Assembly (NCBI RefSeq): GCF_001661965.1 | Contig: NZ_LYWZ01000025.1 | Location: 186,001 to 250,000 of the forward strand | Direction of reading: 5' to 3' | Origin: Croceicoccus mobilis | GTDB taxonomy: Bacteria; Pseudomonadota; Alphaproteobacteria; Sphingomonadales; Sphingomonadaceae | DNA: 64,000 nt | Part shown: positions 1-13,248 of the stretch, in pieces | Position numbering within the stretch: the stretch's first letter is position 1 | Layout: the number at the start of each line of letters is the position of its first letter | Notes under the pieces: model-generated | The model's input: only the letters and a program-made list of their open reading frames with translations | The model's database searches: none | What the model was told of the DNA's origin: nothing | Translations under genes and position numbers: made by a program

Positions 1-856
1 TGCCGCGCAGCGCCGCCTCGGTCATGTCGGCGATGAAAGGCTGGTTGCCGAACAAGATGCTCTCCGAGATCGGCAGAAGGCGGGTGCAGAATTCGGTCGG
101 CCCAACGGCCCAGCCGCTGCGGAACCCGGTCGCGGCAAAGGTTTTCGAGATGGAGGAGACCACGATGGTGCGGTCGCGCAGATCGGCAATTTCCAGCGGC
201 GAGGCAAATTCGTCGTCGGTGAAGATCAGGTCCTCGTAAACCTCGTCCGAAACGATCCACAAATCATGCGCGCGCGCGATCGCGCCAAGCCGGGCAATGC
301 TTTCGCGGTCCAGCAGCGCACCGGTCGGATTATGCGGGCTGTTGAGCAGAAGCACGCGGCTGTCTGGCGTGATCGCAGCCTCAAGATCGGCTGGCTGCAT
401 GATGAAATCATGCTCGATTTTAAGCGGGATGGGCTGCACGATTCCGCCCGGCGCGCGGATCACCCCGGCGTAGGTCGCGTAATAGGGATCGCCCACCAGA
501 ACGCCGTCGCCATCATCGACCAGTGCGGCAATGACTGCGTAAAGTGCGGTCTGCGTTCCGGGAAAGGCGAGGATATTATCGGTGGTGACATCGGGCCAGC
601 GCGGCCGGTATTTCTCGACCAGCGCATCCAGCAGGCCAGCCTCTCCGCGGCCGTTCGAATAATGCGTGCGGCCATCCAGCATGGATTGGTGGCACACCTC
701 GATCAGGGCGGGATCCACGGGGATGTCCGGCTCACCGATGGTCAGCTCGATGATCTCTTCGCCGGCCGCAGCCTTGGCGCGGGCCGCGTTGTGGATGGCC
801 CATTTCTCTCCGCCAAGATCAGCGAGGCGTTCGGTTATGCCGGCATAGCGTGGGAT
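1..856 (-). CDS. Class I/II PLP aminotransferase, 3' end beyond window; apparent AUC start
   Basis: About 285 residues are visible and the gene continues past base 1. It transfers an amino group between an amino acid and a 2-oxo acid in the cytoplasm; the substrate cannot be read from sequence. Seen: TIGEPD near residue 50, the N-P-H-N-P-T-G substrate-loop motif, SDEVYED, and SISKTFAATGFRSGW with the PLP lysine (codon at 143-145). The frame is intact from a TAA at 869-871, but no ATG, GTG or TTG lies ahead of the conserved TIGEPD motif. An AAGGAG (865-870) sits 8 nt before an ATC codon at 854-856 that opens IPRYAGITERL, the usual N-terminus of this group, so AUC is the best start. It overlaps the end of the TetR gene by 22 bp, suggesting coupled translation. 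Identity as an aminotransferase is secure; substrate unknown. Confidence 0.88.
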   Translation of the reverse strand, partial: MPRYAGITERLADLGGEKWAIHNAARAKAAAGEEIIELTIGEPDIPVDPALIEVCHQSMLDGRTHYSNGRGEAGLLDALVEKYRPRWPDVTTDNILAFPGTQTALYAVIAALVDDGDGVLVGDPYYATYAGVIRAPGGIVQPIPLKIEHDFIMQPADLEAAITPDSRVLLLNSPHNPTGALLDRESIARLGAIARAHDLWIVSDEVYEDLIFTDDEFASPLEIADLRDRTIVVSSISKTFAATGFRSGWAVGPTEFCTRLLPISESILFGNQPFIADMTEAALRG

Positions 857-1518
857 TGGTCTTGCTCCTTATCGGTGGTGTCTGCGCCTGCCAGAGTGCC
901 GCCGGGCAATGCCAGCAGGCGCTCCGCGGCCTCGATGATGAGGGATGGCAGGATGTCCTGACCGTAAAGGCCCGAATTCAGCGATCCTTCCAGCCACAAC
1001 CCGTCAAGCAGGGCGTTGAGCGCGATCGCGTGGCGCCTGCACAGGGATGCGCCGTGCGGCATACCCAGATCGGCAAGCACCCCTTCGATCATTGCTTCGA
1101 GCAGGGCGAGAAACTCGCGATAGCCTTCGCGGTGGGTATCGGCGAAATAGCGGTCCTGCCGCACCCGCCCGATGAACGTCGCCCACAGCGATACCTTATC
1201 TTCGGACAGGTTGGGCCGCGTCATGTTGGCGACGAGGAAATGGCGCAGCTGCCGGGCAGGGGAGCCGCCCGATCGTGCCGCGCTTTCGCTGGCGCGCATG
1301 GTCAGCTGGCCGATCAGATAGGCATAGGCATTGCGGATCAGCTCGTCCTTGCTGCCGAAATAATGGCGGACAAGCCCCGCGGTGACGCCCGCTTCATCGG
1401 TGATGCGGCGTACTGTCGCGCCTTCCAGCCCATGTCGTGCCACGCACGAAAGCGTCGCCTCCATCAGGCTCTCGCGCCGCTCGTCGAGCGTCAGCCTCTG
1501 ATATGCCTTCCGGCTCAT
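835..1518 (-). CDS. TetR family transcriptional regulator, BetI-like
   Basis: 227 residues. The N-terminal helix-turn-helix spans about residues 12-60 (MEATLSCVARHGLEG, then ITDEAGVTAGLVRHYFGSK), which closely follows the BetI pattern, and the rest is a helical ligand domain. Such proteins repress neighbouring genes until a small ligand binds. It lies between a 2-hydroxyacid dehydrogenase gene (65 bp upstream, same strand) and the aminotransferase it overlaps. A 15-bp motif at 1561-1575, 43 bp before the start, recurs at 2664-2678 between the dehydrogenase and the divergent aldolase, so autoregulation and control of both flanking genes is likely. Ligand unknown; the BetI resemblance does not prove choline. 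Confidence 0.88.
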   Translation of the reverse strand: MSRKAYQRLTLDERRESLMEATLSCVARHGLEGATVRRITDEAGVTAGLVRHYFGSKDELIRNAYAYLIGQLTMRASESAARSGGSPARQLRHFLVANMTRPNLSEDKVSLWATFIGRVRQDRYFADTHREGYREFLALLEAMIEGVLADLGMPHGASLCRRHAIALNALLDGLWLEGSLNSGLYGQDILPSLIIEAAERLLALPGGTLAGADTTDKEQDQSHAMPA

Positions 1519-1560
1519 GACCTTACCGTTCCATCATGCGGGGTGGCTGTGGTCCATTTG

Positions 1561-1575
1561 TTATACGAGTGAATA
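1561..1575. promoter_or_regulatory. Candidate operator of the TetR regulator (copy 1)
   Basis: The 15-mer TTATACGAGTGAATA matches the element at 2664-2678 at 11 of 15 positions and lies 43 bp before the TetR start. The two copies bracket the dehydrogenase gene. Binding is inferred, not shown. Confidence 0.4.
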
Positions 1576-1583
1576 ATTGCGGA

Positions 1584-2540
1584 TCAATACCCCTGCTCGC
1601 GATCAATCGCCAGGCTGAGATCCTTGCCTGCCAAAAGCTCGCGCGCGGATTGCACGACCTGTTCGGATACGATGTGCGGCGTGGTGTCACTGGCAATGTG
1701 CGGCGTGATGTGGATGCGATTGTCGCTCCAGAACGGGTGATCTTCGGGAAGCGGCTCTGTCGCAAAGACATCAAGGCTCGCACCGGACAATTGCTGCTTG
1801 TCGAGCGCCTCCACGAGGTCTTCTTCGTTCAGATGCTCGCCCCTGCCGATCTGGATCAGCGTCGCGCCAGCAGACAGCTTCGCGAAAAGTTCGGCGTTCA
1901 ATACGCCGCGTGTCTGATCGGTCAACGGCAGCGCATTGACAAGGAATGCGGCATCGGACGCGGCATTCAGCATGGCATCCTCACCCCAGCAATAGCCGGC
2001 GCCATCGATCTGCTTGTCGGGTTCGCTGCGACAGGCAAGCGTGACCGAAAAGCCGAGCACGATCATGGCCCGCGCGATGGCGCGGCCCATGAAGCCATTG
2101 CCGAGTATGGCGATTTTTACCTGCTCAGGCGGACGCATGGGCAGCGGATTCCACTGCGCCCTGACCTGTGCTTGCGCGTATTCTTCGAAGTCCCGTTCGA
2201 TGCGCAGCACCTCATGCGCGACGAAACCGGCCATCAGTTCGGCCTGATAGGGGTCGCGGACGCGGCATATCTCGACAGCGGGCGGCAAGCCGTCATGGGT
2301 GACGAGGTCGTCGACGCCGGCGCCGATCGACATTGCCATTTCAAGTTCGGGATAAGGGGCGAAAGCCTGCTCCCCCGGCTGCCAGCAGACCGCAAAGCGA
2401 ATGGCGGCCGGATCGCTGACCTCATCGGGATTGAGCAATCGTACATCGTCGCATCGCCCAGAAAGGTCGAGCTGGTAGAAAGTCTTGAGGTCGAAAGTCT
2501 CGCTCAAGAGAACACCGTGAATGGTGTCGGGATTTGTCAT
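1584..2540 (-). CDS. D-2-hydroxyacid dehydrogenase, GhrA-like (glyoxylate/hydroxypyruvate reductase family)
   Basis: 318 residues, the usual length of the family. It reduces short 2-oxo acids (glyoxylate, hydroxypyruvate or related) with NAD(P)H in the cytosol. Seen: a Rossmann NAD(P) site ILGNGFMGRAIARAM near residue 145, the INALPLT region with an arginine after it, SLDVFATEPLPEDHPFW, and the catalytic-histidine block ITPHIAS near residue 280. The order of motifs and the short catalytic domain fit GhrA rather than SerA or D-lactate dehydrogenase. It is divergent from the class II aldolase (197 bp between starts) and is followed on its own strand by the TetR gene, suggesting one regulated catabolic unit for a hydroxy or oxo acid. 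Exact substrate unknown. Confidence 0.85.
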   Translation of the reverse strand: MTNPDTIHGVLLSETFDLKTFYQLDLSGRCDDVRLLNPDEVSDPAAIRFAVCWQPGEQAFAPYPELEMAMSIGAGVDDLVTHDGLPPAVEICRVRDPYQAELMAGFVAHEVLRIERDFEEYAQAQVRAQWNPLPMRPPEQVKIAILGNGFMGRAIARAMIVLGFSVTLACRSEPDKQIDGAGYCWGEDAMLNAASDAAFLVNALPLTDQTRGVLNAELFAKLSAGATLIQIGRGEHLNEEDLVEALDKQQLSGASLDVFATEPLPEDHPFWSDNRIHITPHIASDTTPHIVSEQVVQSARELLAGKDLSLAIDREQGY

Positions 2541-2663
2541 CGTCGATACATCTCCGGGGAAGATCGTGTTCCGGGGCTGGGCCGGCCATCGGCTGAATGC
2601 AGCAGTGACGGCTTATGCCCGCGAAGGTTCGGTTCGGGGGTTGTGCTGGCTTCGATGAAGAAC

Positions 2664-2678
2664 TTATACAAACGTATA
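2664..2678. promoter_or_regulatory. Candidate operator of the TetR regulator (copy 2), dyad TATAC-N4-GTATA
   Basis: TTATACAAACGTATA contains the dyad TATAC/GTATA and matches the copy before the TetR gene. It lies in the divergent promoter region, 60 bp before the aldolase start and 124 bp before the dehydrogenase start, so one bound dimer pair could control both. Confidence 0.45.
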
Positions 2679-2737
2679 TCATCGAGTAAAGCCGGGCAGG
2701 CACCGGCTATTGCTGCGGCGAAGGAGATCGGGTCGAC

Positions 2738-3520
2738 ATGACGGATGGCACCATCTTGCAGGAAGATCGGCTTGCGGCGGTAAGCGAGGGTGAGCGGCAG
2801 GCCCGGATCGAGCTGGCCGCCTGCTACAGGCTGGCGGCGCATTACCGGATGACCGACATCATCTACACCCACATAACCGCGCGCGTGCCGGGAGAGCCGG
2901 GCCATTTCCTGATCAACCCCTATGGCCTGATGTGGGAGGAGATCACCGCATCGTCGCTGGTGAAGATCGACGTCGAGGGAAACAAGGTCGACGACAGCAG
3001 CCATCGCGTTAATCCGGCCGGCTTCATGATCCACAGCGCGGTGCACATGGGTCGCCATGACGCGGCTTGGGTGATGCATACGCACACCCGCTCGGGCGTG
3101 GCGGTGTCCTGCCTTTCGGATGGTTTGCTGCCACTCAATCAGATCGCGATGCAGTTTTACGGCCGGATTGGCTATCACGATTTCGAAGGCATCGCCCTTG
3201 ATACGGGGGAGCGGGAAAGGATCATCGCGAACCTTGGCCGCAATACGGCGCTGATCCTTCGCAACCATGGCCTCGTGACCGTTGGTGAAAGCGCGGCGCA
3301 GATGTTTTCAAAAATGTTCTATTTGAACAGGGCATGCGAAATCCAGGAGTCCGTTCTGGCCATGGGCCGACGGATCGAGCCTGTTTCCGAAGAGATCGCG
3401 CAGCGCGTCGTCGAGCAATATGACGAGCTGGAGAGCGAGGACAGCGATCAGGAATTGAAGCTGGAATGGGATGCGCAGATGCGCATGCTCGACCGTATTG
3501 ATCCACTTTACGTGCAATGA
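2738..3520 (+). CDS. Class II aldolase/adducin family protein
   Basis: 260 residues, a full-length single class II aldolase/adducin domain. Members are zinc enzymes that cleave or epimerise sugar phosphates or hydroxy-oxo acids; several are uncharacterised. Seen: RIELAACYRLAAHYRMTD at the N-terminus, the ITARVP and FLINPYGL segments, the zinc-ligand motif VMHTHTRSG near residues 111-119, a second histidine block LILRNHGLVTVG near residue 175, and a helical tail ending in LDRIDPLYVQ. The ATG follows GAAGGAGATCGGGTCGAC, with a GAAGGAG Shine-Dalgarno. It is divergent from the 2-hydroxyacid dehydrogenase and shares a candidate TetR operator with it, so an aldol product reduced by the dehydrogenase is an attractive but unproven link. 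Confidence 0.87.
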   Translation: MTDGTILQEDRLAAVSEGERQARIELAACYRLAAHYRMTDIIYTHITARVPGEPGHFLINPYGLMWEEITASSLVKIDVEGNKVDDSSHRVNPAGFMIHSAVHMGRHDAAWVMHTHTRSGVAVSCLSDGLLPLNQIAMQFYGRIGYHDFEGIALDTGERERIIANLGRNTALILRNHGLVTVGESAAQMFSKMFYLNRACEIQESVLAMGRRIEPVSEEIAQRVVEQYDELESEDSDQELKLEWDAQMRMLDRIDPLYVQ

Positions 3521-3943
3521 CCGGATTGGCCCGATCACATTCTGTCAAAACCATAGGCTTTACGTGCTTGACATGACTGAGGGGGGTACATAGCCTCCTG
3601 TCAATAACGAGGAAGAGAATATCTTTCTTGTCGTTCGGTCTAGTCCGTTATGCGTGTGGTCCGGGCGGGAGAGGGCGGTCCCGATTTCGCGTTTCGCGAT
3701 CTAATCCTGTATTTTTCAGGAAATATTATCGGTTCCGCGCAATAAAAATTGCAAGAACGCATTGGCTTGACGATTTATTCGTCATGCGGTGGCGTCATTA
3801 CTTTGCCGGTTGTCATTTCCGGCAATGGAATTTTGCGCAGTTTTGTCGGTTTCGAAAGATTGCGGTCCACGCCCCTCCCATGGCTTTGGCACTGTTCCGC
3901 ACGGTTTCGATAACTTCTCCGGCCCCCCACAAGGAGTAAGCGA
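3521..3943. other. 423-nt non-coding stretch with four short hairpins before the miniprotein-methyltransferase pair
   Basis: No convincing reading frame. Four inverted repeats follow one another: TCGCG/CGCGA with loop TTT (3687-3699), TCCTG/CAGGA with a T-rich 7-nt loop (3705-3721), TGACGA/TCGTCA with a 5-nt loop (3768-3784) and TTGCCGG/CCGGCAA with a 9-nt loop (3803-3825). Later there is a direct repeat CGGTTTCGA at 3847 and 3902. The stretch ends in a strong AAGGAG before the ATG at 3944. It could be a structured leader, a small RNA, or plain intergenic DNA; I could not match it to a known SAM or SAH riboswitch. Confidence 0.4.
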
Positions 3944-4135
3944 ATGCAAACACTCGATTGCAACGGCCTTTCGGAAATTCCCACGGTCCTCCGCATCAAG
4001 CAGGCGCTGGTCGGATGGACGGAAGCGGGGGGTGAAATCGGTGTGCTGGTCGGGTCGCATTGCGATCATGATCGTATTACCGGCTCGCTCGGGGCGATGG
4101 CCGATCGCGTCAGGCTGGTTTCGGCACCCAACTAG
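3944..4135 (+). CDS. 63-residue miniprotein, weakly TusA/SirA-like, lacking the usual cysteine
   Basis: Supported as a gene by a near-perfect Shine-Dalgarno (CAAGGAG, 6-7 nt before the ATG) and by its place 53 bp before the methyltransferase gene on the same strand. The protein opens TLDCNGLSEIPTVLRIKQAL and continues with a short strand (EIGVLV) and a helix (DRITGSLGAM). This layout recalls the small TusA/SirA fold (LDxxGLxCPxPxLxxxKAL), but the catalytic Cys of the CPxP motif is replaced (EIP), so sulfur-carrier activity is not expected; a cysteine three residues earlier remains. Its function is unknown. Pairing with a sulfur-related methyltransferase makes a regulatory or partner role worth testing. 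The fold match is by eye and weak. Confidence 0.5.
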   Translation: MQTLDCNGLSEIPTVLRIKQALVGWTEAGGEIGVLVGSHCDHDRITGSLGAMADRVRLVSAPN

Positions 4136-4188
4136 CACGCCCGGCGCGGATACCGCCACTGCCGCAAGCATGACCAGAAGAGGGTAGA

Positions 4189-5112
4189 ATGGCTGACGCC
4201 AGCATTTCGGATATGACCAATCATTCCGGGCACGAGCCTGTATCTCTCGAAAGACCGGATTACGCATTTGATCCCACCGATCCATGGACGCGAACCTTTC
4301 AGGAAGGGCTGAAGCGCGCGGAACTTTCAGGCAAGTCAGTCTATGAGGTGGGTGTCGGAACGGGCACCAATGCCGCCTTCGTGCTGCGCGATTGCGGCGC
4401 GTCGGTCTTTTACGGCAGCGATCTCGATCCGCGCCTTGTCGAACTGGCGCAGCGCAACGTCCGCAGCCTTGCCCCCCATCAGGCATCACGGTTTCAGCCC
4501 GTGATGGGGGCCGTCAGCCTGGTCGACAATGATGAGGCGCGGGCAAAGCTGGCGAAGACCGATGTGATCATCGCCTGCCTGCCGCAGGTCGGTGACCCCA
4601 ATGACGAACATTTCACCTCTTTCCGCAATGAGCATTCGAGTGCGGCACCCATGGAGGCCGAGGATCCATCAGAGGATCACATCGCGCATTATTATCCGTG
4701 GAAGAGCTTTGACGAATATCCCTACAACTCGGTCGGGCTGGGCCTGAACGAGGCTTTGCTACGCCGCATCCGGGAGTTTGGCGCAGCTGAGGCGCAGGTC
4801 GTGATGAACTTCGGTTGCCGCATCGGCACCGAGCTCATTTTCGAGATGTTCAGGGCAAACGGGTTCGAACCGGAAAAGCTGGCGTCGCGCCTCGTGCTGC
4901 AGCACGCGGGCACGGATATATCCTTTTTCGTCGCGCTGGAAAGCGCGCTCAAGGGTACGGGGCTGGAGAAGGACTTCACGTGCAAATTCTTCGCCGACCC
5001 CGAAGGCGAGGAGAAATTGTCGGCATCGCAGGCGCAAGCATTGCTGGATGAAGATCCGCAGGTGCCGCTTTATCACGAAGTATGCGTTATCCGCGGAGTG
5101 CAGCCCGCCTGA
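4189..5112 (+). CDS. mmtN: Methionine S-methyltransferase MmtN-like (S-methylmethionine / DMSP biosynthesis)
   Basis: 307 residues, class I SAM methyltransferase. Seen: motif I VYEVGVGTGT (51-60), acidic ribose-binding region SDLDP (77-81), the ACLPQVGDPN block (129-138), YNSVGLGLNEALL (179-191), VVMNFGCRIGTEL (204-216) and AGTDISFFVALE (240-251). From memory, plant methionine S-methyltransferase has the same blocks in the same order (CIPQ..NPN, FGLGL, IFNMGGRPG, AADTDISALVEIE). Bacterial MmtN is the stand-alone version of that domain at about this length. The family makes S-methylmethionine from methionine and SAM, the first step of one DMSP pathway, as known in Novosphingobium and some Rhodobacterales. 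No decarboxylase or DMSP-aldehyde dehydrogenase lies in the window. It is preceded by the miniprotein and converges on a GST gene. An orphan N/S-methyltransferase is the main alternative. Confidence 0.75.
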   Translation: MADASISDMTNHSGHEPVSLERPDYAFDPTDPWTRTFQEGLKRAELSGKSVYEVGVGTGTNAAFVLRDCGASVFYGSDLDPRLVELAQRNVRSLAPHQASRFQPVMGAVSLVDNDEARAKLAKTDVIIACLPQVGDPNDEHFTSFRNEHSSAAPMEAEDPSEDHIAHYYPWKSFDEYPYNSVGLGLNEALLRRIREFGAAEAQVVMNFGCRIGTELIFEMFRANGFEPEKLASRLVLQHAGTDISFFVALESALKGTGLEKDFTCKFFADPEGEEKLSASQAQALLDEDPQVPLYHEVCVIRGVQPA

Positions 5113-5157
5113 ACGAGGCCGTGAGGGGATCGGGCGGCAAACTCGCTGGCGCGCGGA

Positions 5158-5811
5158 TCAGAATTCGACGTCCAGCTCTTCCAGCTCTTCGGGTTCCGCC
5201 TTCGCCGCTGCGATCCATTCCTTCATCGGTGCCCAGTCGGCGATCGTCCGGCAATAGGCCGCGCTTTCGGGCGAAACCCCGACGGCATAGGTGATGAAGC
5301 GCGTCGCGACCGGCGCATACATGGCGTCGGCCACGGTCGGCTTTTTGCCAAAGAGAAACGGGCCGCCATATTTCGAGAGGCATTCGTGCCAGATCGTCTC
5401 GATCCTCTCGATATCGGGGCGTGCGCCGCTGAACACGGGGAAGCTTTCATGCACGATCTTCAGGTTCATCGGCAAAGCGGATCGCAGATTGGTAAAGCCT
5501 GAATGGATCTCCCCCGAAACCGACCGGCAATGCGCGCGCGCGATCCGGTTTTCGGGCATCATGCCGGCTTCGGGAAAACACTCGTTGAGATATTCCGCGA
5601 TCGCCAGCGTATCCCAGACGCTGGCCTCTTCATGGGTCAGGCGCGGGACGAGGACGGAGGGCGATAGCAGCAGCAGCTCGGCACGGTTGCTGGCATCGTT
5701 TTCGACCGGCACCTCCACGAAATCGAGGCCCGCCAGCTTGCACAGGAGCCAGCCCCTGAGCGACCAGGCCGAATAGGTTTTGCTCGAAATCGTCAGCTGC
5801 GCTTTTTGCAT
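5158..5811 (-). CDS. Glutathione S-transferase family protein
   Basis: 217 residues from the ATG at 5811, chosen because GGAAGAA directly precedes it and the thioredoxin fold starts at once (AQLTISSKTYSAWSLRGWLLC). Glutathione transferases conjugate or exchange glutathione on electrophiles in the cytosol. Seen: N-terminal domain with SLRGW in the active-site loop, LSPSVLVPRL (the cis-Pro strand) and DTLAIAEYLNECFP near residue 65, then an all-helical C-terminal domain with GKKPTVADAMYAPVATRF. This resembles the YfcF/maleylacetoacetate-isomerase-like group seen in proteobacteria. It converges on the methyltransferase gene with 45 bp between stops, and the PHA depolymerase gene diverges from it. 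Substrate unknown. Confidence 0.87.
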   Translation of the reverse strand: MQKAQLTISSKTYSAWSLRGWLLCKLAGLDFVEVPVENDASNRAELLLLSPSVLVPRLTHEEASVWDTLAIAEYLNECFPEAGMMPENRIARAHCRSVSGEIHSGFTNLRSALPMNLKIVHESFPVFSGARPDIERIETIWHECLSKYGGPFLFGKKPTVADAMYAPVATRFITYAVGVSPESAAYCRTIADWAPMKEWIAAAKAEPEELEELDVEF

Positions 5812-5918
5812 TTCTTCCCCGCCAGATCGTTCAAAAGCTTGCTTTGCTCGATGATGCGCTGCAGCATTGCGCAATCCGGTCGTTTTGAAAAGGTGAAACG
5901 CATGCGCTGTCTGGTGGT

Positions 5919-5928
5919 GGAGGTGATC
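5919..5928 (+). promoter_or_regulatory. Extended Shine-Dalgarno of the PHA depolymerase gene
   Basis: GGAGGTGATC is fully complementary to the 3' end of 16S rRNA and sits 4 nt before the ATG at 5933, predicting strong ribosome recruitment. Confidence 0.75.
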
Positions 5929-5932
5929 TGTA

Positions 5933-7156
5933 ATGCTCTATAAGAGCTATCAGGCATTCACCGACCTCATGCTGCCCTCGCGCATGCTGGCCTCTGCGAT
6001 GGTTGAGCTGGGCGAGCGACTGCCCGATGAGATTTCGGACAATGATCTGGTAAAGCGCTATTTCGCGCTGTGCGAGGTTTTCGCCGGCATAACCCTCACT
6101 CACAAGCGTCCCGATTACGGCATCGAGGAGGTGTTGTGCGGCAACGAGGTCCAGCCCGTGGTCGAGGAGGTCGCGCAGGACTGGCCGTTCGGCAATCTTT
6201 TGCATTTCGCGAAACCGGGCCTGCAGACGCCGCAGCCGCGCATGCTGGTGGTGGCGCCGCTATCGGGCCATTTCGCCACGCTGCTGCGCAATACGGTCGA
6301 AACGCTGCTGCGCGACCATGACGTCTATATCCTCGACTGGAAGAATGCGCGTGACATTCCGCAGAGCGAGGGGCGTTTCGGCTTTGACGATTACGTCGAC
6401 TACATCATCACCGGCATGCAGCATTTGGGGCCGGGATCGCATATGTTCGCGGTCTGCCAACCCTGCGTCCCGGCATTGGTCGCGACGGCGCTGATGGCAG
6501 AGGACCGCGACCCCAGCGAGCCGCGCACGCTGACATTGCTGGGCGGCCCGGTCGATACGCGTGAATCGCCAACGGTCGTGAACGAACTGGCCAATTCGAA
6601 ACCCTATTCCTGGTTCGAGGAAACGGTCATCGACAAGGTGCCGCTCCGCTATCGGGGAAGGGGGCGCAAGGTCTATCCCGGCTTTCTCCAGCTGACCGCC
6701 TTCATGTCGATGAACCCTGATCGCCACTGGGACCAGCAGCGCAAGCTTTATGATATGGTCGTCAATGGCGAGGACGAGGCCGCGCTCAAGATACAGGATT
6801 TCTACAAGGAATATTTCGCCGTTCTCGACCTGACGGCGGAATTCTACCTGGAGACGATCGACAAGGTGTTCCAGCGCGCCCTGCTGGCCAAGGGTGAACT
6901 GATGTATCGCGGTGAAAGGCTGGTCGATTGCAACGCCATCCAGCGCACCGCCATCCTTACCGTCGAAGGGGAGCGCGACGATATCTGTGCCGTGGGGCAG
7001 ACGGCCGCGACCCATCTGCTGTGCGGCCGGTTGCGGCCCCATCTCAAGCGCCATTACCTGCAGCCCGGCGTCGGTCATTACGGTATTTTCGCCGGATCGA
7101 AATGGGAACGGCAGGTCTATCCGCAGGTGCGCAATATCGTTCTGGCCATGAACTAG
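5933..7156 (+). CDS. phaZ: Intracellular polyhydroxyalkanoate depolymerase
   Basis: 407 residues, the normal length of intracellular short-chain PHA depolymerases of the Cupriavidus PhaZa1 type. It mobilises stored polyhydroxybutyrate granules to hydroxybutyrate or, with CoA, to hydroxybutyryl-CoA. Seen: an alpha/beta-hydrolase core with strand RMLVVAPLSGHF (103-114), the nucleophile elbow FAVCQPCVP with Cys175 in place of serine (characteristic of this family), the aspartate region VEGERDDI near residue 345 and the histidine in GVGHYGIF near 382. No signal peptide, as expected for a granule-bound cytosolic enzyme. No PHA synthase lies in the window. It diverges from the GST gene and converges on the amino-acid permease. 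Confidence 0.92.
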   Translation: MLYKSYQAFTDLMLPSRMLASAMVELGERLPDEISDNDLVKRYFALCEVFAGITLTHKRPDYGIEEVLCGNEVQPVVEEVAQDWPFGNLLHFAKPGLQTPQPRMLVVAPLSGHFATLLRNTVETLLRDHDVYILDWKNARDIPQSEGRFGFDDYVDYIITGMQHLGPGSHMFAVCQPCVPALVATALMAEDRDPSEPRTLTLLGGPVDTRESPTVVNELANSKPYSWFEETVIDKVPLRYRGRGRKVYPGFLQLTAFMSMNPDRHWDQQRKLYDMVVNGEDEAALKIQDFYKEYFAVLDLTAEFYLETIDKVFQRALLAKGELMYRGERLVDCNAIQRTAILTVEGERDDICAVGQTAATHLLCGRLRPHLKRHYLQPGVGHYGIFAGSKWERQVYPQVRNIVLAMN

Positions 7157-7157
7157 C

Positions 7158-7184
7158 GGCCCTGAATTAATGGCCCTGAATTAA
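7158..7184. repeat. 14-bp tandem duplication between convergent stops
   Basis: GGCCCTGAATTAA occurs at 7158-7170 and again at 7172-7184, one base apart. The second copy includes the permease stop codon (TAA, 7181-7183 on the minus strand). It looks like a replication-slippage duplication in the short convergent spacer. Confidence 0.8.
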
Positions 7185-8419
7185 CGGATCGCCGGCCACA
7201 GGCTGGCCACCATCAGGCCAAGGCAGATCACGCTACCCAGTATCGGCACGACGATGGGATAGCGCGGTAAGCCATCGCCTTTGGCAACCCCGCGCATCCT
7301 GATCGCGACCAGCCCGGCGCATACGCAGGAAAAGATCAGCAGCATCAGCGTGCTGGTGCCTGCGGCCAAAGTCTGGATCGGGAAAAACAGGGCAAGCAGC
7401 GCGATCACTACGCCAGAGCAGACGGTTGCCCTGACCGGGGTCCGCGTGCGCGGAGAAATCCGGGCCAGCCAGCGCGGCGCCGCCCGGCGCCGGGTGCCGA
7501 GGTCATGAATGACCCGCGACGCCATGACGATCTGCGCCAGCGCGCCATTGAGGATGGTGACAAGCCCGATCAGCGCGAGGAAATCCGATGGGCCGCCATG
7601 GCGCGCGATGATGGCGCTGAGCGGTGCGCCGCTCTCACGCAATGTCTCGGACGACAGCGTCGATACCGCGATCGCCGATACCGCGAGATAGAGGCAGAGC
7701 GAAATGGCCAGCGCGGTGATGATGGCGAAGGGGATGGCGCGGCTGCTGTCGGTCGTCTCCTCCGACAATGTGGCCAGATCCTCAAAGCCGATATAGGCGT
7801 AGAATGACAGCACGGTCCCTGCCAACACGCCGTGGACCAGCACCTCTGGCGGCGCATCCAAGCCCTGGGCGAATGTCGCGGGAAAATCGGCCAGCGATCC
7901 CCCGGCAAAGCCGATCACGAGCAGCAGGCCCAGCACCTCCAGCGCAGTGGTCGCGATCATCGTCCATGCCGCTTCCTTCACCCCGATGGCGGCAATGGCG
8001 GCAAGCGCCGCAATCACCAACGGCACGACCAGATATTTCGGCAGCGCCACGAATACGGCCAGATAGCCGACAAATCCCGACGTGATCGTCGCTGCCGAGA
8101 TAAGACCCGTGGCGATGATGGCCCAGCCGATGAAAGCGGTTAGCCATTGCCGGTTGAAGGCCCGCGCGACAAAGGCGGCGGACCCGCCGCTTTCAGGTAT
8201 GCGCGCGCTCAATTCGCCATAGGACAGGCCGGTCAGCCACGCCGCGACCGCAGCGACCAGAAATGCGACGGGGGCCAGAGAACCCGCTTCCCCCGCGACC
8301 TTGCCGACGACGACATAGATCCCTGCACCAAGGATCGTGCCAAGCCCATAGATCGCCAGCACCCAGCGGGAAAGTGCCGGTTCGAGCGTCTCGCCTGCCT
8401 TGCCCGCCGCCTTTGCCAA
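7181..8419 (-). CDS. APC superfamily amino acid permease
   Basis: 412 residues from a TTG at 8419. An earlier in-frame start would overlap the preceding permease gene, and the first residues after the TTG (AKAAGKAGETLEPALSRW) lead straight into helix 1. It imports or exchanges amino acids or polyamines across the inner membrane. Seen: about twelve hydrophobic segments, the helix-1 signature GLGTILGAGIYVVVG (the GAGI unwound binding region), GELSARIPESGGSAAFV after helix 2, and YIGFEDLATLSEET near residue 220, all typical of APC transporters. It begins 28 bp after the MacB-like permease gene and may be read through from that operon. It has no obvious link to an exporter. Start uncertain. Confidence 0.85.
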   Translation of the reverse strand: MAKAAGKAGETLEPALSRWVLAIYGLGTILGAGIYVVVGKVAGEAGSLAPVAFLVAAVAAWLTGLSYGELSARIPESGGSAAFVARAFNRQWLTAFIGWAIIATGLISAATITSGFVGYLAVFVALPKYLVVPLVIAALAAIAAIGVKEAAWTMIATTALEVLGLLLVIGFAGGSLADFPATFAQGLDAPPEVLVHGVLAGTVLSFYAYIGFEDLATLSEETTDSSRAIPFAIITALAISLCLYLAVSAIAVSTLSSETLRESGAPLSAIIARHGGPSDFLALIGLVTILNGALAQIVMASRVIHDLGTRRRAAPRWLARISPRTRTPVRATVCSGVVIALLALFFPIQTLAAGTSTLMLLIFSCVCAGLVAIRMRGVAKGDGLPRYPIVVPILGSVICLGLMVASLWPAIR

Positions 8420-8447
8420 TATAGGCCCCCCGCGTTCAGCCTTGCCC

Positions 8448-9653
8448 TTATTCGTAGCGCAGCGCGTCAATCGGATTGAGATTGGCCGCCCGCCGCGCAG
8501 GGAAATAGCCGAAGACGATGCCGATCGCACCGGAAATGAGGAACGCGGCAACATTGATCGGCAGGTCGAACACCCATGGCAGACCCATCAACGGTATGGC
8601 GAGCGCGATCACAAGCTGCGCCAGCGCCAGCCCCAGTAACCCGCCGATGCAGGACAGCACGACCGCCTCGACCAGGAACTGCATCAGCACTTCGCCGGCG
8701 ATGGCGCCGATGGCAAGGCGTATGCCGATCTCACGCGTGCGTTCGGTTACGGATACGAGCATGATGTTCATGATCCCGATCCCGCCCACGACAAGGCTGA
8801 TCGCGGCGATGGCGGCGACGATGGCGGTCAGCATGCCGGTCGTTTCGGTGACCGTGTCGGTGATCTGCTTGGTATCGAAGATGTTGAAATCCTCGTCCTC
8901 GCCCTCCGACAGATGCCGGCGCGCGCGCAGCACATTGGTAAGCGTCGTCTTCACCGCTTCGGTCGAGAAACTGTCGTCGATGCCGATGACGATGGTATGG
9001 ATGTCGGTGCTGCCAAGGAAGCGGCGCTGCACCGTCTTGACCGGCATGATGACGATATCGTCCTGGTCGTTGCCGAAACCGCCCTGACCCTTGGTGCTCA
9101 ATACGCCAATGACATCGCAGCTGACATCGCCGACGCGGAAGCGCTTACCCATCGGATCCACGGCGCGAAACACCTCGTCCCGCACGGTGGTGCCGATCAG
9201 GCAGACCGACTTGCCCGCGCTTTCCTCCTGGGCGTTGAACAGGCGGCCCTGTTCCAGCGGCCATGGCTGAATGGCGAAATATTGATTGGTGCTGCCGGTA
9301 ATCCTCGTCGACCAGTTCGCCCCTTCATAGATGGCCGTCGCGCTGGTGGTGGTGAGGGGGGCGACCGCCTTTACGCCGCTGACCTGTTCGGCAATGGCGG
9401 TGATGTCGGCATTGTCGAACTGCCGGGGCGCAGACCCGCCGCCGCGGCCCGAACCGCTGCCGGGGCTGACCTGCAATATGTTTGATCCCAAAGATGCGAT
9501 CTGGTCGGTCACCGCCGCCGTCGTCGCACGGCCCAGCGTCACCATGGTCACGACCGCCGCGACCCCGATCACGATGCCCAGCATGGTCAGCAGCGAACGC
9601 AATGCGTGCCGCTTTATCGAGCGCAGCGAGACGAAGACGATCGTGCCCAGCAT
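8448..9653 (-). CDS. MacB-like ABC transporter permease (stand-alone membrane subunit)
   Basis: 401 residues. The membrane half of a MacB-type mechanotransmission ABC exporter: an N-terminal transmembrane helix (SLLTMLGIVIGVAAVVTMVTLG, read in two halves), a periplasmic MacB_PCD domain of about 200 residues, and three C-terminal helices (IAAISLVVGGIGIMNIMLVS, VEAVVLSCIGGLLGLAL, AAFLISGAIGIVFGYFPARR) ending in the signature NPIDALRYE. It works with the ATPase gene just upstream, whose stop overlaps this start by one base, and with the fusion protein and outer-membrane factor to push substrates (macrolides, peptides or lipids) out of the periplasm. Substrate not deducible. Confidence 0.92.
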   Translation of the reverse strand: MLGTIVFVSLRSIKRHALRSLLTMLGIVIGVAAVVTMVTLGRATTAAVTDQIASLGSNILQVSPGSGSGRGGGSAPRQFDNADITAIAEQVSGVKAVAPLTTTSATAIYEGANWSTRITGSTNQYFAIQPWPLEQGRLFNAQEESAGKSVCLIGTTVRDEVFRAVDPMGKRFRVGDVSCDVIGVLSTKGQGGFGNDQDDIVIMPVKTVQRRFLGSTDIHTIVIGIDDSFSTEAVKTTLTNVLRARRHLSEGEDEDFNIFDTKQITDTVTETTGMLTAIVAAIAAISLVVGGIGIMNIMLVSVTERTREIGIRLAIGAIAGEVLMQFLVEAVVLSCIGGLLGLALAQLVIALAIPLMGLPWVFDLPINVAAFLISGAIGIVFGYFPARRAANLNPIDALRYE

Positions 9654-10396
9654 CAGCCCGCGCCCCCGGCTGCGATGGCCCTGTTTTCGCGTGACCTGCG
9701 CACATGGCCGGTTTCCTCGCGGTCGATAAGGCCATCCTTGAAATGGACGATGCGCCGCGCAAATTCGGCCATGTCCGGTTCGTGCGTCACCATCATCACC
9801 GTGATCCCGTCGGCATTGAGATCGGACAAAAGCTCCATGATCTCAACCGATCGCTGGCTGTCGAGATTACCGGTGGGTTCGTCGGCCAGCAGCACATCCG
9901 GGCTGGACACGATGGCGCGGGCGATGGCCACGCGCTGCTGCTGCCCGCCCGATAATTCGCCCGGCGTGTGATCGGACCATGCGGCAAGGCCGACCTTTTC
10001 CAGCGCCGCCATCGCGCGTTCACGCCGCAATTTGCGATCATCGCCGCGATAAAGAAGCGGCAGTTCGACATTTTCAAGCGCGGAGGTGCGCGCCAGCAGG
10101 TTGAACCCCTGAAACACAAAGCCGAGATAGCGCCGCCGCAAGAGCGCCCGCTGGTCGCGCTCCAATGCCTCCACATGGTGGCCGCGAAACAGATATTCGC
10201 CGCTGCTGGCGACGTCGAGGCAGCCAAGAATATTCATCATCGTCGACTTGCCCGACCCCGATGGCCCCATGATCGCGACGAATTCGCCCGGCGCGACATC
10301 GAAATCGACACCCTTCAGCGCGCGAAAGGCGGTGTCGCCGCTGCCGAACACCTTGGTCACGTGCCTCAGCGATATGAGAGGGGCAGGGGCTGCCAT
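9653..10396 (-). CDS. ABC transporter ATP-binding protein, MacB/LolD type
   Basis: 247 residues, one nucleotide-binding domain. Seen: Walker A GPSGSGKST near residue 44, Q-loop FVFQGFNLL, signature LSGGQQQRVAIARAI near residue 146, Walker B VLLADEPTGNLD, and the H-loop VTHEPDMAEFA. The SGGQQQ signature and GNLD D-loop are typical of the LolD/MacB group. It powers the permease encoded next and lies 6 bp after the fusion-protein gene. Confidence 0.93.
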   Translation of the reverse strand: MAAPAPLISLRHVTKVFGSGDTAFRALKGVDFDVAPGEFVAIMGPSGSGKSTMMNILGCLDVASSGEYLFRGHHVEALERDQRALLRRRYLGFVFQGFNLLARTSALENVELPLLYRGDDRKLRRERAMAALEKVGLAAWSDHTPGELSGGQQQRVAIARAIVSSPDVLLADEPTGNLDSQRSVEIMELLSDLNADGITVMMVTHEPDMAEFARRIVHFKDGLIDREETGHVRRSRENRAIAAGGAG

Positions 10397-10402
10397 CGCC
10401 GC

Positions 10403-11719
10403 CTAATCCGCCGCCTCGGCGCCTGCTGCCGAGCGTTTGCCGACGATGACCTGCATTCCGGCTTCCAGATCGCCGGAACTGACCGCGGTGAAGCTGCCAT
10501 CGGTTTCGCCGGTCACGATCTGGACAGGTTCGGGATCACCATCACTGCCCAGCACATAGATCGTCTGGCGGGCGCCGCGTCCGATGACGACTGTCTTCTC
10601 CACGGTTTCACGGGGCGGGCCAAGGCGCATCCCGTCCGACTTCTCCTCTTCGTCAATGGGCTGGAAGGTCAGCGCGCCATTGGGCACCAGCAGCGCGTCG
10701 GAGCGATCCGAGGTGACGATATCGGCCGTGGCCGTCATGCCCGGGCGCAGCTTCTGATCGGGATTGGCGACCGACAGGTCTGCGGCATAGGACACGACCT
10801 GCCCCGAAGTGGAGGATGTGCCGGACGAGCCGCTGCTCGACGCGCTGGCGGCAGAGGCGGTGAGGTTGGAGCCGATCTCGACCCGGGTGATCCGCGCGGG
10901 AAAGCGCGTTCCGGGGAAGGCATCGACGGTAAAGCTCGCCTCCTGCCCTTCCTTGACGGTGCCGACATCGGCCTCGTCGATCGCGACTTCCAGCTTCATC
11001 TGGGAAAGATCTTCGGCGATCACGAACAGGGTCGGCGTGCTGAAAGATGCGGCCACGGTCTGCCCCGGATCGACCTGCCGGGCCAGCACGACGCCTGCGA
11101 CGGGGGATCGGATGATGGCGCGATTACGCTGGGTGCGGCTCTGCGCCAGCGTTGCCTCCGACGCGCCGACATTGGCCTGCGCCACGGCCAGCGCGGCGCG
11201 CGCGCGGTCGAGGTCGGCCTTGCCCGTCTGCAATTCGGTGGCCGATGGCACCTTGCCGCCCGAAAGCTCGCGCACTTCCTCTAGCCGGGCATATTGCGCC
11301 TGCGACTGGGCGAGCGTCGCCCTTGCCTGCTCGACCTGCGCGCGATTGGCGGCAAGCTGGGCGACATTCTGCCTGATCTGGTCCTCGATCTGTTCGGGAT
11401 CGATTTCGGCCAGCGGCTGACCGGCGCTCACGCGGTCGTTCACATCGACCAGCACCCGCGTGACAAGGCCGGAAAGTTGCGATCCGACCGTGACCTGGTT
11501 CGTGGGGGCGAGCTTGCCCGTCGCCGATACGCTGGCGACAAGGCTGCCGCGCTTTACCTCTGCGGTCACATAGCCGGCCTCATCCCCGTCCGAAAAGCAG
11601 CGGGAGATCAGGAGGACAAGGACGATCAGGACCGCGACCGTGGCCCAGATCTTGCGCCTTTTGTACCAGGGCGGGCGCTTGTCCTCGCCAAGGAATTCTT
11701 CGATCGTCTCTTCGGACAT
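10403..11719 (-). CDS. MacA-like periplasmic membrane fusion protein
   Basis: 438 residues. The adaptor joins the inner-membrane ABC pump to the outer-membrane factor. Seen: a cytosolic N-terminus rich in charge, one transmembrane anchor (KIWATVAVLIVLVLLIS, residues 23-39), the first lipoyl half near SLVASVSATGKLAPTNQV, a long alpha-hairpin with QNVAQLAANRAQVEQARATL, the second lipoyl half (IRSPVAGVVLARQVDPGQTV), then beta-barrel and membrane-proximal domains. An insertion rich in serine (ASAASASSSGSSGTSSTSG, residues about 290-308) is a flexible linker not found in standard MacA. It starts 2 bp after the outer-membrane factor stop. Function from family and operon context. Confidence 0.9.
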   Translation of the reverse strand: MSEETIEEFLGEDKRPPWYKRRKIWATVAVLIVLVLLISRCFSDGDEAGYVTAEVKRGSLVASVSATGKLAPTNQVTVGSQLSGLVTRVLVDVNDRVSAGQPLAEIDPEQIEDQIRQNVAQLAANRAQVEQARATLAQSQAQYARLEEVRELSGGKVPSATELQTGKADLDRARAALAVAQANVGASEATLAQSRTQRNRAIIRSPVAGVVLARQVDPGQTVAASFSTPTLFVIAEDLSQMKLEVAIDEADVGTVKEGQEASFTVDAFPGTRFPARITRVEIGSNLTASAASASSSGSSGTSSTSGQVVSYAADLSVANPDQKLRPGMTATADIVTSDRSDALLVPNGALTFQPIDEEEKSDGMRLGPPRETVEKTVVIGRGARQTIYVLGSDGDPEPVQIVTGETDGSFTAVSSGDLEAGMQVIVGKRSAAGAEAAD

Positions 11720-11721
11720 GG

Positions 11722-13248
11722 TCAGTCCTGCCCCCCTGGTGAAATCTCTGCCGGCCCCTCTATCGGCGGATCATATGCGGGATTGCCCTCAGGGTCCCAG
11801 CCGCCGCCCAGCGCATCATAAAGCGCGACCAGCGCGTTTGCCCGGTCGGATTGCGCCTGCACCAGCCCATTGCGGGCCGAGATCAACGCGATCTCCTGTG
11901 CGTTCAATGTCGTGAAATCGGTCAGTCCCGACTGGTATTGCGCCCGTGCATAGATGGCCGAATTATTGGCCGCATCCAGCGCCACTTCGTAAAGCGTCTC
12001 CCGCTCACGCGCGGCGCGCAGGGCGGTGACGGCGTTCTCCACATCCTCCAGCGCGGTCAGCACGGTTCCGCGATAGCTGGCAAAGGCGCCATCGGCAGCA
12101 GCTTCGGCCTGCCGGGCCTGCGCGGCCAGTCGGCCCCCTGCGAACAGCGACTGGCTGATCCCGGCAAACAGTCCGCTGGTGATCGTGTCGAACAGGCGCG
12201 AAAAGCTGGTCGCATTGGTGTCGAGGCTGCCGCTGATCGAAAGCGTGGGCAGCAATGCCGCGCGCGCAACGCCGATCTGCGCGGCTGCTGCTTCAAGCTG
12301 GCGTTCGGCCGAGCGGATGTCGGGGCGGCGGCGCAAGAGGTCTGCCGGGATGCCCGCGCCGGGATCGGATGGCCCGGTGGGAATGGGCTGTACCGCTTCC
12401 ATGATGGGCTTTACCGCCCCCGGCGCCTGCCCGGTAAGGACGCCAAGGCGCGAGACGGCGGCATTATACTGCTGCCCAATCTGCGGGACCGAGGCTGCCG
12501 ATTGCGCACGGCTGGACCGGGCCTGTTCCTCATCCACGGATGAGACGAGGCCTGCCATCACGCGGTATCCGGCGATTTCCAGATTATCGTCCTGAATGGC
12601 CAGGCTGGCCCGCGCATTGGCAAGCTGCGACTGATAGGCCCGCGCGAGGATGTAGTTGCGCGCGACCTCGCTCTCCACCAGCCGCATGGTCGAGGCATAG
12701 TCGAATCCCGCAGCCTCCAGATCCGCCCGGCTTGCCCGCACGGCGCTGCGATTGCCGCCGAATATGTCGAGCTGGTAGCTGGCATCGAGGCCGAGCGAGA
12801 AGCTGTCGCTGCCGCCGCCGCCTACGGTCGTCACCGTGCCATCGGGCAGGGTGACCGTCGTGCCGCCGCCGCGGATGCTTTCCTGCCGGTTGTAACCGCC
12901 CGCAGCGGATAGCGAGGGAAACAGCGACGAACGGCTGACGACGAGCGCCTCTCGCGCTTGGCGCAGGCGGGACAGGGCAACACCCAGATCGGTATTCGCC
13001 TCAAGCGATTGTTCGATCAGCCCGGTCAGTACCGGATCGTCGAATGCCTGCCACCACCGCACGAGATCGGGCGTTTCACCCGATGCCTCGACGCTCCAAT
13101 CTTCCGGAAGGGCAAGCGCCTGCGCATCATGCGGCATTTCGGGGGCGAGCGTCGTGCACGATGCAAGCAGCACGGCGGCAAAAGCCGGCAGTATCTTCCT
13201 TGCAATATCGAAATGCATCAGCGCCCCCGCATCATCCGCCATCTGCAT
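11722..13248 (-). CDS. NodT/OprM-family outer-membrane efflux lipoprotein (TolC-like)
   Basis: 508 residues from the ATG at 13248, chosen because GGGAAGG lies 7 nt upstream; an ATG at 13218 is the other option and would give a tighter signal peptide (MHFDIARKILPAFAAVLLASC). The lipobox LLASC predicts cleavage and lipidation. Two outer-membrane-factor repeats follow, with coiled-coil helices (RLRQAREALVVSRSSLF; ARQAEAAADGAFASYRGTVLTALEDVENAV) and the NodT hallmark RRRPDIRSAERQLEAAAAQIGVAR, which I read in parts near residue 320. It forms the exit duct for the downstream MacA-MacB-like pump and is the first gene of that operon. The promoter should lie in 13249-13467. Confidence 0.9.
   Translation of the reverse strand: MQMADDAGALMHFDIARKILPAFAAVLLASCTTLAPEMPHDAQALALPEDWSVEASGETPDLVRWWQAFDDPVLTGLIEQSLEANTDLGVALSRLRQAREALVVSRSSLFPSLSAAGGYNRQESIRGGGTTVTLPDGTVTTVGGGGSDSFSLGLDASYQLDIFGGNRSAVRASRADLEAAGFDYASTMRLVESEVARNYILARAYQSQLANARASLAIQDDNLEIAGYRVMAGLVSSVDEEQARSSRAQSAASVPQIGQQYNAAVSRLGVLTGQAPGAVKPIMEAVQPIPTGPSDPGAGIPADLLRRRPDIRSAERQLEAAAAQIGVARAALLPTLSISGSLDTNATSFSRLFDTITSGLFAGISQSLFAGGRLAAQARQAEAAADGAFASYRGTVLTALEDVENAVTALRAARERETLYEVALDAANNSAIYARAQYQSGLTDFTTLNAQEIALISARNGLVQAQSDRANALVALYDALGGGWDPEGNPAYDPPIEGPAEISPGGQD

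Follow-up and report, generated by a model that had tools for sequence, protein, structure and literature searches.

Our analysis of a 64,000-nt stretch of the Croceicoccus mobilis genome (hereafter, the window) revealed an mmtN gene in a conserved cluster, and the sequence data make it very probable that the gene encodes methionine S-methyltransferase and that the cluster serves a route from S-methylmethionine (SMM) to DMSP. DMSP is one of the main osmolytes of the sea and gives rise to climate-active DMS, and mmtN is used as a reporter of DMSP synthesis in bacteria. MmtN itself is ordinary and well identified; new here are the adjacent likely pathway genes, a small conserved gene, two operator-like sites, a histidine at the methionine gate, and a proposal for the last step. 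Together these provide a four-enzyme proposal for the cluster route and a candidate for a second type of DMSHB decarboxylase.

The mmtN gene (window 4189..5112, plus strand) is an ATG-started, uninterrupted reading frame of 307 codons. Its product contains the motifs GVGTG, ACLPQVGDPN, YNSVGLGLNE, VVMNFGCRIGT, and AGTDIS; the initial annotation had read such blocks as markers of plant methionine S-methyltransferase, and all those that it quoted were found. A phmmer search yielded a single PDB match at E<=0.01, 7VVV (E 6.2e-121, residues 16-303), with 180 of 287 aligned residues identical (63%). On the basis of the 305-aa length given in PMC9135737, we take 7VVV to be the Roseovarius indicus MmtN of that paper; the entry title reads only "SAM-dependent methyltransferase". 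Generic methyltransferase models of Pfam and NCBIfam matched the window protein at 5e-5 or weaker, and none passed its curated cut-off. Group I enzymes share >50% identity with characterized members, and the window protein is 63% identical to 7VVV and 58-70% identical to 18 relatives recovered by a scan of the GTDB contig collection. Assignment to Group I is thus strongly supported by sequence match, residues, and tree, and the predicted activity is a SAM-dependent methylation of the methionine sulfur that would yield SMM; Group I enzymes act in this way on methionine but not on MTHB or MMPA. The retained SAM-binding residues and the identity to 7VVV also bear out, at the level of sequence, the earlier view of a single-domain bacterial MmtN that opens the SMM route. 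A plant-type MMT (Group III) was ruled out, since the 307-aa, single-domain protein has no added C-terminal aminotransferase domain as in the ~115-kDa enzyme; the aminotransferase near mmtN is a separate gene on the opposite strand, not a fused domain.

The residues that bind SAM, methionine, and the central phosphate in MmtN are listed in PMC9135737. Our alignment to 7VVV showed that the SAM-binding residues are kept in the window protein: GVGTG is at 55, and reference Asp69, Ser101, Leu102, and Cys121 map to Asp78, Ser110, Leu111, and Cys130. The gate residue, window Tyr169, is kept, as is the phosphate pocket, in which reference Pro169 and Arg183 correspond to window Pro178 and Arg192; the pocket arginine is replaced by His in L011 and by Gln in L014. 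At the methionine-binding positions, the window has Asp136 for Glu127, Glu260 for Glu250, and His141 for Arg132 (codon at window 4609-4611, plus strand). At the methionine gate, 17 of 19 rows have Arg at the Arg132 position, and the other two, the window and Jiella L014, have His; PMC9135737 describes this position as Arg in all MmtN. The histidine is therefore a real departure, although probably not a fatal one. That this exchange of Arg132 for His141 leaves the window MmtN inactive or altered seems most improbable: the R132A variant keeps >50% activity with a raised KM for methionine, and the window reading frame is intact, with the other listed residues kept. Since Arg132 was found not to be essential for catalysis (PMC9135737), we did not take His141 to exclude Group I membership.

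The 18 mmtN relatives belong to Thalassospira, Novosphingobium indicum, Rhizobiaceae, Jiella, roseobacters, and one Rhodospirillum MAG; a comparison with MmtN of Novosphingobium and Thalassospira had initially been suggested. The gene is single-copy in the C. mobilis genome and rare around it: among 14 genomes of its genus, 385 genomes sampled across the class, and 397 across the family, the C. mobilis genome itself was each time the only one with a match. One more sphingomonad-like genome, the only mmtN carrier in its 14-genome genus sample, can thus be placed among the likely DMSP producers. Plasmid records gave 2 mmtN matches at 53-54% identity. The MmtN tree, also suggested at the outset, comprised 20 rows and left out the partial L016 as well as L021, whose mmtN is read in two frames; it placed the window among the Group I rows without resolving its position there and set the plasmid copy L022 apart on the longest branch. 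Alignments A1, A2, and A3 covered 11 of 15 loci, 12 of 18 loci plus L022, and 13 of 17 loci, respectively. On the Rhodovulum plasmid pRGUI01 (L021:7001-7908), mmtN is split into two pieces that lie in different frames and have been annotated as two hypothetical proteins. In the Rhodospirillum MAG (L016:5382-6705), the C-terminal part of an aminotransferase lies directly against an mmtN that is present from residue 69 onward, the two being on opposite strands; this junction represents a rearrangement or a misassembly.

Directly upstream of mmtN are genes for an aminotransferase, a BetI-like TetR regulator, a D-2-hydroxyacid dehydrogenase, a class-II-aldolase-fold protein, and a small protein; the first three are on the minus strand, and the aldolase-fold gene, the small gene, and mmtN are on the plus strand. 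The four larger partner genes occur in the same order and on the same strands in 15 of the 18 mmtN loci at 57-78% identity (tblastn). The exceptions are L016, with only a piece of the aminotransferase gene, and L015 and L018, which have no partner genes. In L015, L018, L021, and L022, there is instead a linked decarboxylase, and the four decarboxylases are 63-80% alike. Linked downstream DMSP genes are a trait of Group I, and the partner genes that adjoin mmtN in 15 of 18 loci, as well as in the window, agree with it. The initial annotation had noted no DMSP-aldehyde genes adjacent to mmtN, and indeed its neighborhood contains no aldehyde dehydrogenase gene; its further inference that the remaining pathway genes lie elsewhere is not supported: the partner genes adjoin mmtN in an arrangement kept across those 15 loci. 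The window mmtN most likely belongs to a six-gene, TetR-regulated DMSP cluster, which is probably of the Novosphingobium BW1-like kind of PMC9135737.

A tree of the concatenated aminotransferase, TetR, dehydrogenase, and aldolase-fold proteins, from which L002 was omitted (aminotransferase cut by the locus end), paired the window with Novosphingobium indicum (support 99/98). Beyond the cluster, GST, PhaZ, the amino acid permease, and the left-hand genes of the window were found in 0 of the 18 mmtN loci (tblastn). An empty site for gain of the cluster could not be defined, since the left-hand flanking gene was matched only in its own genome and PhaZ was represented in the 13 sister genomes only by paralogs at 49-51%. 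The cluster has a G+C content of 0.599 and the remainder of the window one of 0.629; the cluster value falls within the range of the other slices (0.592-0.650) and gives no sign for or against horizontal gain. No Rfam riboswitch match was obtained at E<=1 in window 1-12000. By eye, three consecutive MacB-like ABC permease genes (one 34% match) precede the cluster at L020:3248-8215, and permease, ATPase, and membrane-fusion-like genes of an ABC transporter are found at window 8448-11719. A polyhydroxyalkanoate depolymerase gene (phaZ) lies beyond mmtN at window 5933-7156, with a second copy in the same genome at C16:220696.

The TetR-family regulator (window 835..1518, minus strand) has a BetI-type C-terminal domain, with PF00440 and PF13977 above cut-off and the BetI equivalog models below cut-off, and it is 69-76% identical in 15 of 18 loci. 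Two operator-like sites, O1 and O2, recur in all 16 clusters, the window included. The palindrome O2, TTATACAAACGTATA (window 2664..2678, plus strand), lies in the divergent gap between the dehydrogenase and aldolase-fold genes and shows 0 mismatches to the pattern TTAWACAANNGTATA. An exact copy of the pattern is present in 15 of 15 cluster loci and absent from every fetched locus that lacks the cluster; in total, it matched in 17 of 56 loci, two of which are from the window's own genome. At <=2 mismatches, the window had 3 matches to the pattern, compared with a mean of 0.09 in window shuffles, and two of the 3 are both strands of one further site, O1. This site, TATACGAGTGAATA (window 1562..1575, plus strand), lies upstream of tetR and has 1 mismatch to TATACNNNNGTATA; an O1-type site with 1-2 mismatches precedes tetR in 16 of 16 clusters. 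Since 0-3 extra sites per locus were found elsewhere at <=2 mismatches, what counts in favor of O1 is its constant position. The window has no operator-like site in front of mmtN, and only L004 has a 2-mismatch site in that gap. The TetR protein presumably binds to O1 and O2, and a BetI-like repressor of this kind would sense a sulfonium compound.

The aminotransferase of class I/II (PLP-dependent; window 1..856, minus strand; PF00155, 183 bits) extends with its C-terminal part beyond the window, to a stop at G000:C18:185645 (L020:9645). It is 72-78% identical in 16 of 18 mmtN loci, L016 having a piece only and L002 being cut by the locus end, and the PLP-lysine motif SKTFAATGFRSG is kept. The full reading gives 403 aa if translation starts at the ATC at 856, which has AAGGAG 8 nt ahead of it. 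The sole in-frame ATG, GTG, or TTG start is the GTG at window 718, which gives 357 aa and would lose 46 residues conserved in the relatives. The start region is ATG CGC TAT in the four relatives shown, compared with CCA CGC TAT in the window, which points either to an unusual start codon or to lost function, and the window aminotransferase might be impaired. The GhrA-like D-2-hydroxyacid dehydrogenase (window 1584..2540, minus strand; PF02826, 133 bits) is 57-65% identical in 15 of 18 loci, and its catalytic Arg233, Glu262, and His280 are present and kept in 16 of 16 rows.

The steps after SMM in Novosphingobium/Thalassospira-type clusters are not set out in the literature that we found. Since an aminotransferase and a D-2-hydroxyacid dehydrogenase are both present, the natural reading is that SMM passes through an oxo acid to DMSHB. 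The aminotransferase would convert SMM to 4-dimethylsulfonio-2-oxobutyrate, and the dehydrogenase would reduce this unstable compound to D-DMSHB, so that the route would run from methionine through SMM, 4-dimethylsulfonio-2-oxobutyrate, and DMSHB to DMSP. The alternative of a decarboxylation route, in which enzymes elsewhere in the genome would take SMM through DMSP-amine and DMSP-aldehyde to DMSP, has been shown for other mmtN- or burB-type systems (PMC11464771) and agrees with the linked decarboxylase of four other mmtN loci. It is improbable here, because the cluster contains no such decarboxylase and our search of the C. mobilis genome found no close relative of the mmtN-linked ones; its best matches, two in number, are only 26-31% identical, and by eye their neighbors make them look lysA-like and exosortase-associated. 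This lack of a close relative makes the transamination route more likely.

The fate of SMM also has to be considered, since an active MmtN might feed an SMM cycle that returns the methyl group to homocysteine, or yield another product, instead of DMSP. PMC9135737 proposes such a cycle for Group II enzymes, and the C. mobilis genome encodes, besides a MetH-like protein, a 312-aa protein with a homocysteine S-methyltransferase domain (G000:C16:97975-98844, locus L050; PF02574, 95.9 bits) that could recycle SMM. We nevertheless regard this explanation as very unlikely, given that the window MmtN belongs to Group I and not to Group II, that the partner genes are conserved with mmtN, that contig C16 carries the PF02574 gene and contig C18 mmtN, and that, according to PMC9135737, all tested bacteria with such clusters made DMSP. 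The DMSP lyase family PF16867 was not found in the C. mobilis genome, but this is a weak negative result, since 0 of 14 control genomes passed the cut-off either.

In the conversion of DMSHB to DMSP, an alpha-hydroxy acid is oxidatively decarboxylated, and we consider the class-II-aldolase-fold protein (window 2738..3520, plus strand) a candidate iron-dependent enzyme for it. The protein matched PF00596 (158 bits) and NF005451 (359 bits, above the cut-off of 207) and is 69-74% identical in 15 of 18 loci. As in NovR- and TqaM-type enzymes, the aldolase II fold carries three metal-binding histidines: His114, His116, and His177 are invariant in 16 of 16 cluster proteins, and the first two align with the HxH of NovR and the third with its NHG. 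Fold and sequence-profile searches, the former with a middling structure model (pLDDT 69), gave 3ocr and adducin as the nearest structures, and the nearest enzymes with known chemistry were TqaM, pyruvic oxime dioxygenase (POD), and NovR, all of which are non-heme iron enzymes. One TqaM entry is complexed with D-3-phenyllactic acid, a D-alpha-hydroxy acid. CloR/NovR, with their three histidines, and TqaM are described as iron-dependent oxidative decarboxylases (PMC13111500, PMC12192607). With iron on its three histidines, the cluster protein would decarboxylate DMSHB oxidatively to DMSP in the manner of TqaM and NovR, as pathway logic and the fold suggest. Our searches for literature linking mmtN with a class II aldolase found none (supplementary tables and the first description of mmtN were outside their scope).

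The aldolase-fold family is widespread (169 of 372 genomes, E<=1e-40), and belonging to it is by itself a poor guide to function. For this reason, and because the best match outside the clusters reaches 63% (G172), the gene was rejected as a cluster marker. No aminotransferase, TetR, dehydrogenase, or mmtN match was found in the 16 kb around the G172 gene, and two of six aldolase-fold regions outside the clusters have a 41-43% dehydrogenase nearby. It may accordingly be asked whether SMM is transaminated and the oxo acid then decarboxylated non-oxidatively or broken down to DMS, with the dehydrogenase and aldolase-fold protein otherwise employed or the latter a true aldolase. 4-Dimethylsulfonio-2-oxobutyrate is among the pathway compounds listed in PMC9135737. 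The closest structures, moreover, are not oxygenases, 3ocr and adducin having no known relevant chemistry, and 4xxf, labeled fuculose-1-phosphate aldolase, has a fold score like that of TqaM and a sequence-profile score above those of TqaM and NovR. In contrast, E. coli FucA ranked far below TqaM, POD, and NovR, and its catalytic residue, which we take to be Glu73, falls on Gly95 (alignments read by eye), a glycine invariant in 16 rows. Since the dehydrogenase and aldolase-fold genes are also kept beside mmtN in 15 of 18 loci, this alternative as a whole seems rather unlikely, and we retain DMSHB decarboxylation as the proposed function.

Comparison of the gaps between the aldolase-fold gene and mmtN across loci revealed a further small reading frame (window 3944..4135, plus strand), which encodes 63 aa assigned to no family. 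It has AAGGAG ahead of its ATG and ends 53 nt before mmtN. Its frame is conserved in 17 of 18 mmtN loci at 44-63% identity with E values of 2e-20 to 2e-8 (tblastn, E<=1e-4) and is missing only in L016, a partial locus. In L015 and L018, it precedes the decarboxylase gene; the L021 small gene is 73% identical to that of L018, and L022 has in the same place an 84-aa protein with a DCRGL start and little further likeness. dN was lower than dS in 9 of 9 pairs, with near equality in one (0.084 vs. 0.109). Neither Pfam nor NCBIfam gave a match for the protein at E<=10. Across 372 class genomes, a profile search recovered its own genome at 9e-31 and no convincing match in the 371 others; two weak partial matches (1.5e-3 and 6.6e-3) lay inside far larger frames. 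The structure model (pLDDT 88) has the order beta-alpha-beta-alpha-beta, and Foldseek returned nothing at E<=0.001. This order is shared with UPF0033/TusA-type small proteins, and the best PDB sequence match was 3hz7, a UPF0033 protein; we dropped a TusA identity, which inspection by eye had also suggested, since that match was non-significant (E 0.41) and no TusA-type entry was among the 50 fold-search rows listed. No literature linking mmtN with TusA was found.

The small protein is an orphan family tied to mmtN; it has been passed over by annotation and, within the literature found, in print, yet it occurs with mmtN nearly everywhere examined. Its role would be to aid MmtN or to act on a shared intermediate. 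PMC9135737 reports KM values of 15.3 mM (methionine) and 6.2 mM (SAM) for R. indicus MmtN alone and of 2.0 mM and 1.0 mM for Novosphingobium MmtN alone, and one may speculate that the small protein is a partner that improves these values. The most far-reaching model is a methylation-first hybrid route with an algal transamination end, in which the aldolase-fold protein would be a second, unrelated iron/O2 DMSHB decarboxylase and MmtN would have the 63-aa protein as its dedicated partner. As a complete model, it is plausible but tentative, and somewhat short of probable. If it holds, the 63-aa partner is kept in both downstream pathway kinds, and its absence from the assays may explain the millimolar KM values of MmtN.

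Among known systems, R. indicus MmtN (PDB 7VVV, 7VVW, 7VVX) resembles the window enzyme over the 287 aligned residues and in its SAM-binding and phosphate-pocket residues, whereas its Arg132 and Glu127 are His141 and Asp136 in the window. Its roseobacter relatives (L015, L018) have decarboxylase-type neighborhoods without the window's four partner genes. The clusters of N. indicum, Thalassospira, Rhizobiaceae, and Jiella (L001-L014, L017) share with the window the same genes, order, and strands, with the aminotransferase, TetR, and dehydrogenase genes divergent from the aldolase-fold gene, small gene, and mmtN, and they share both operator-like sites; they differ from it in the start codon of the aminotransferase. 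TqaM, POD, and NovR have the aldolase II fold and the HxH and NHG histidines in common with the cluster protein, and NovR resembles the cluster protein in having a small residue at the position of FucA Glu73; however, their identity to the cluster protein is about 22-29%, and 3ocr and adducin are closer to it. DsyGD, described as the sole known enzyme with DMSHB decarboxylase activity as of 2024 (PMC11306096), catalyzes the same last step as that proposed for the cluster aldolase-fold protein, but its decarboxylase domain is PF04115, whereas that of the cluster protein is PF00596.
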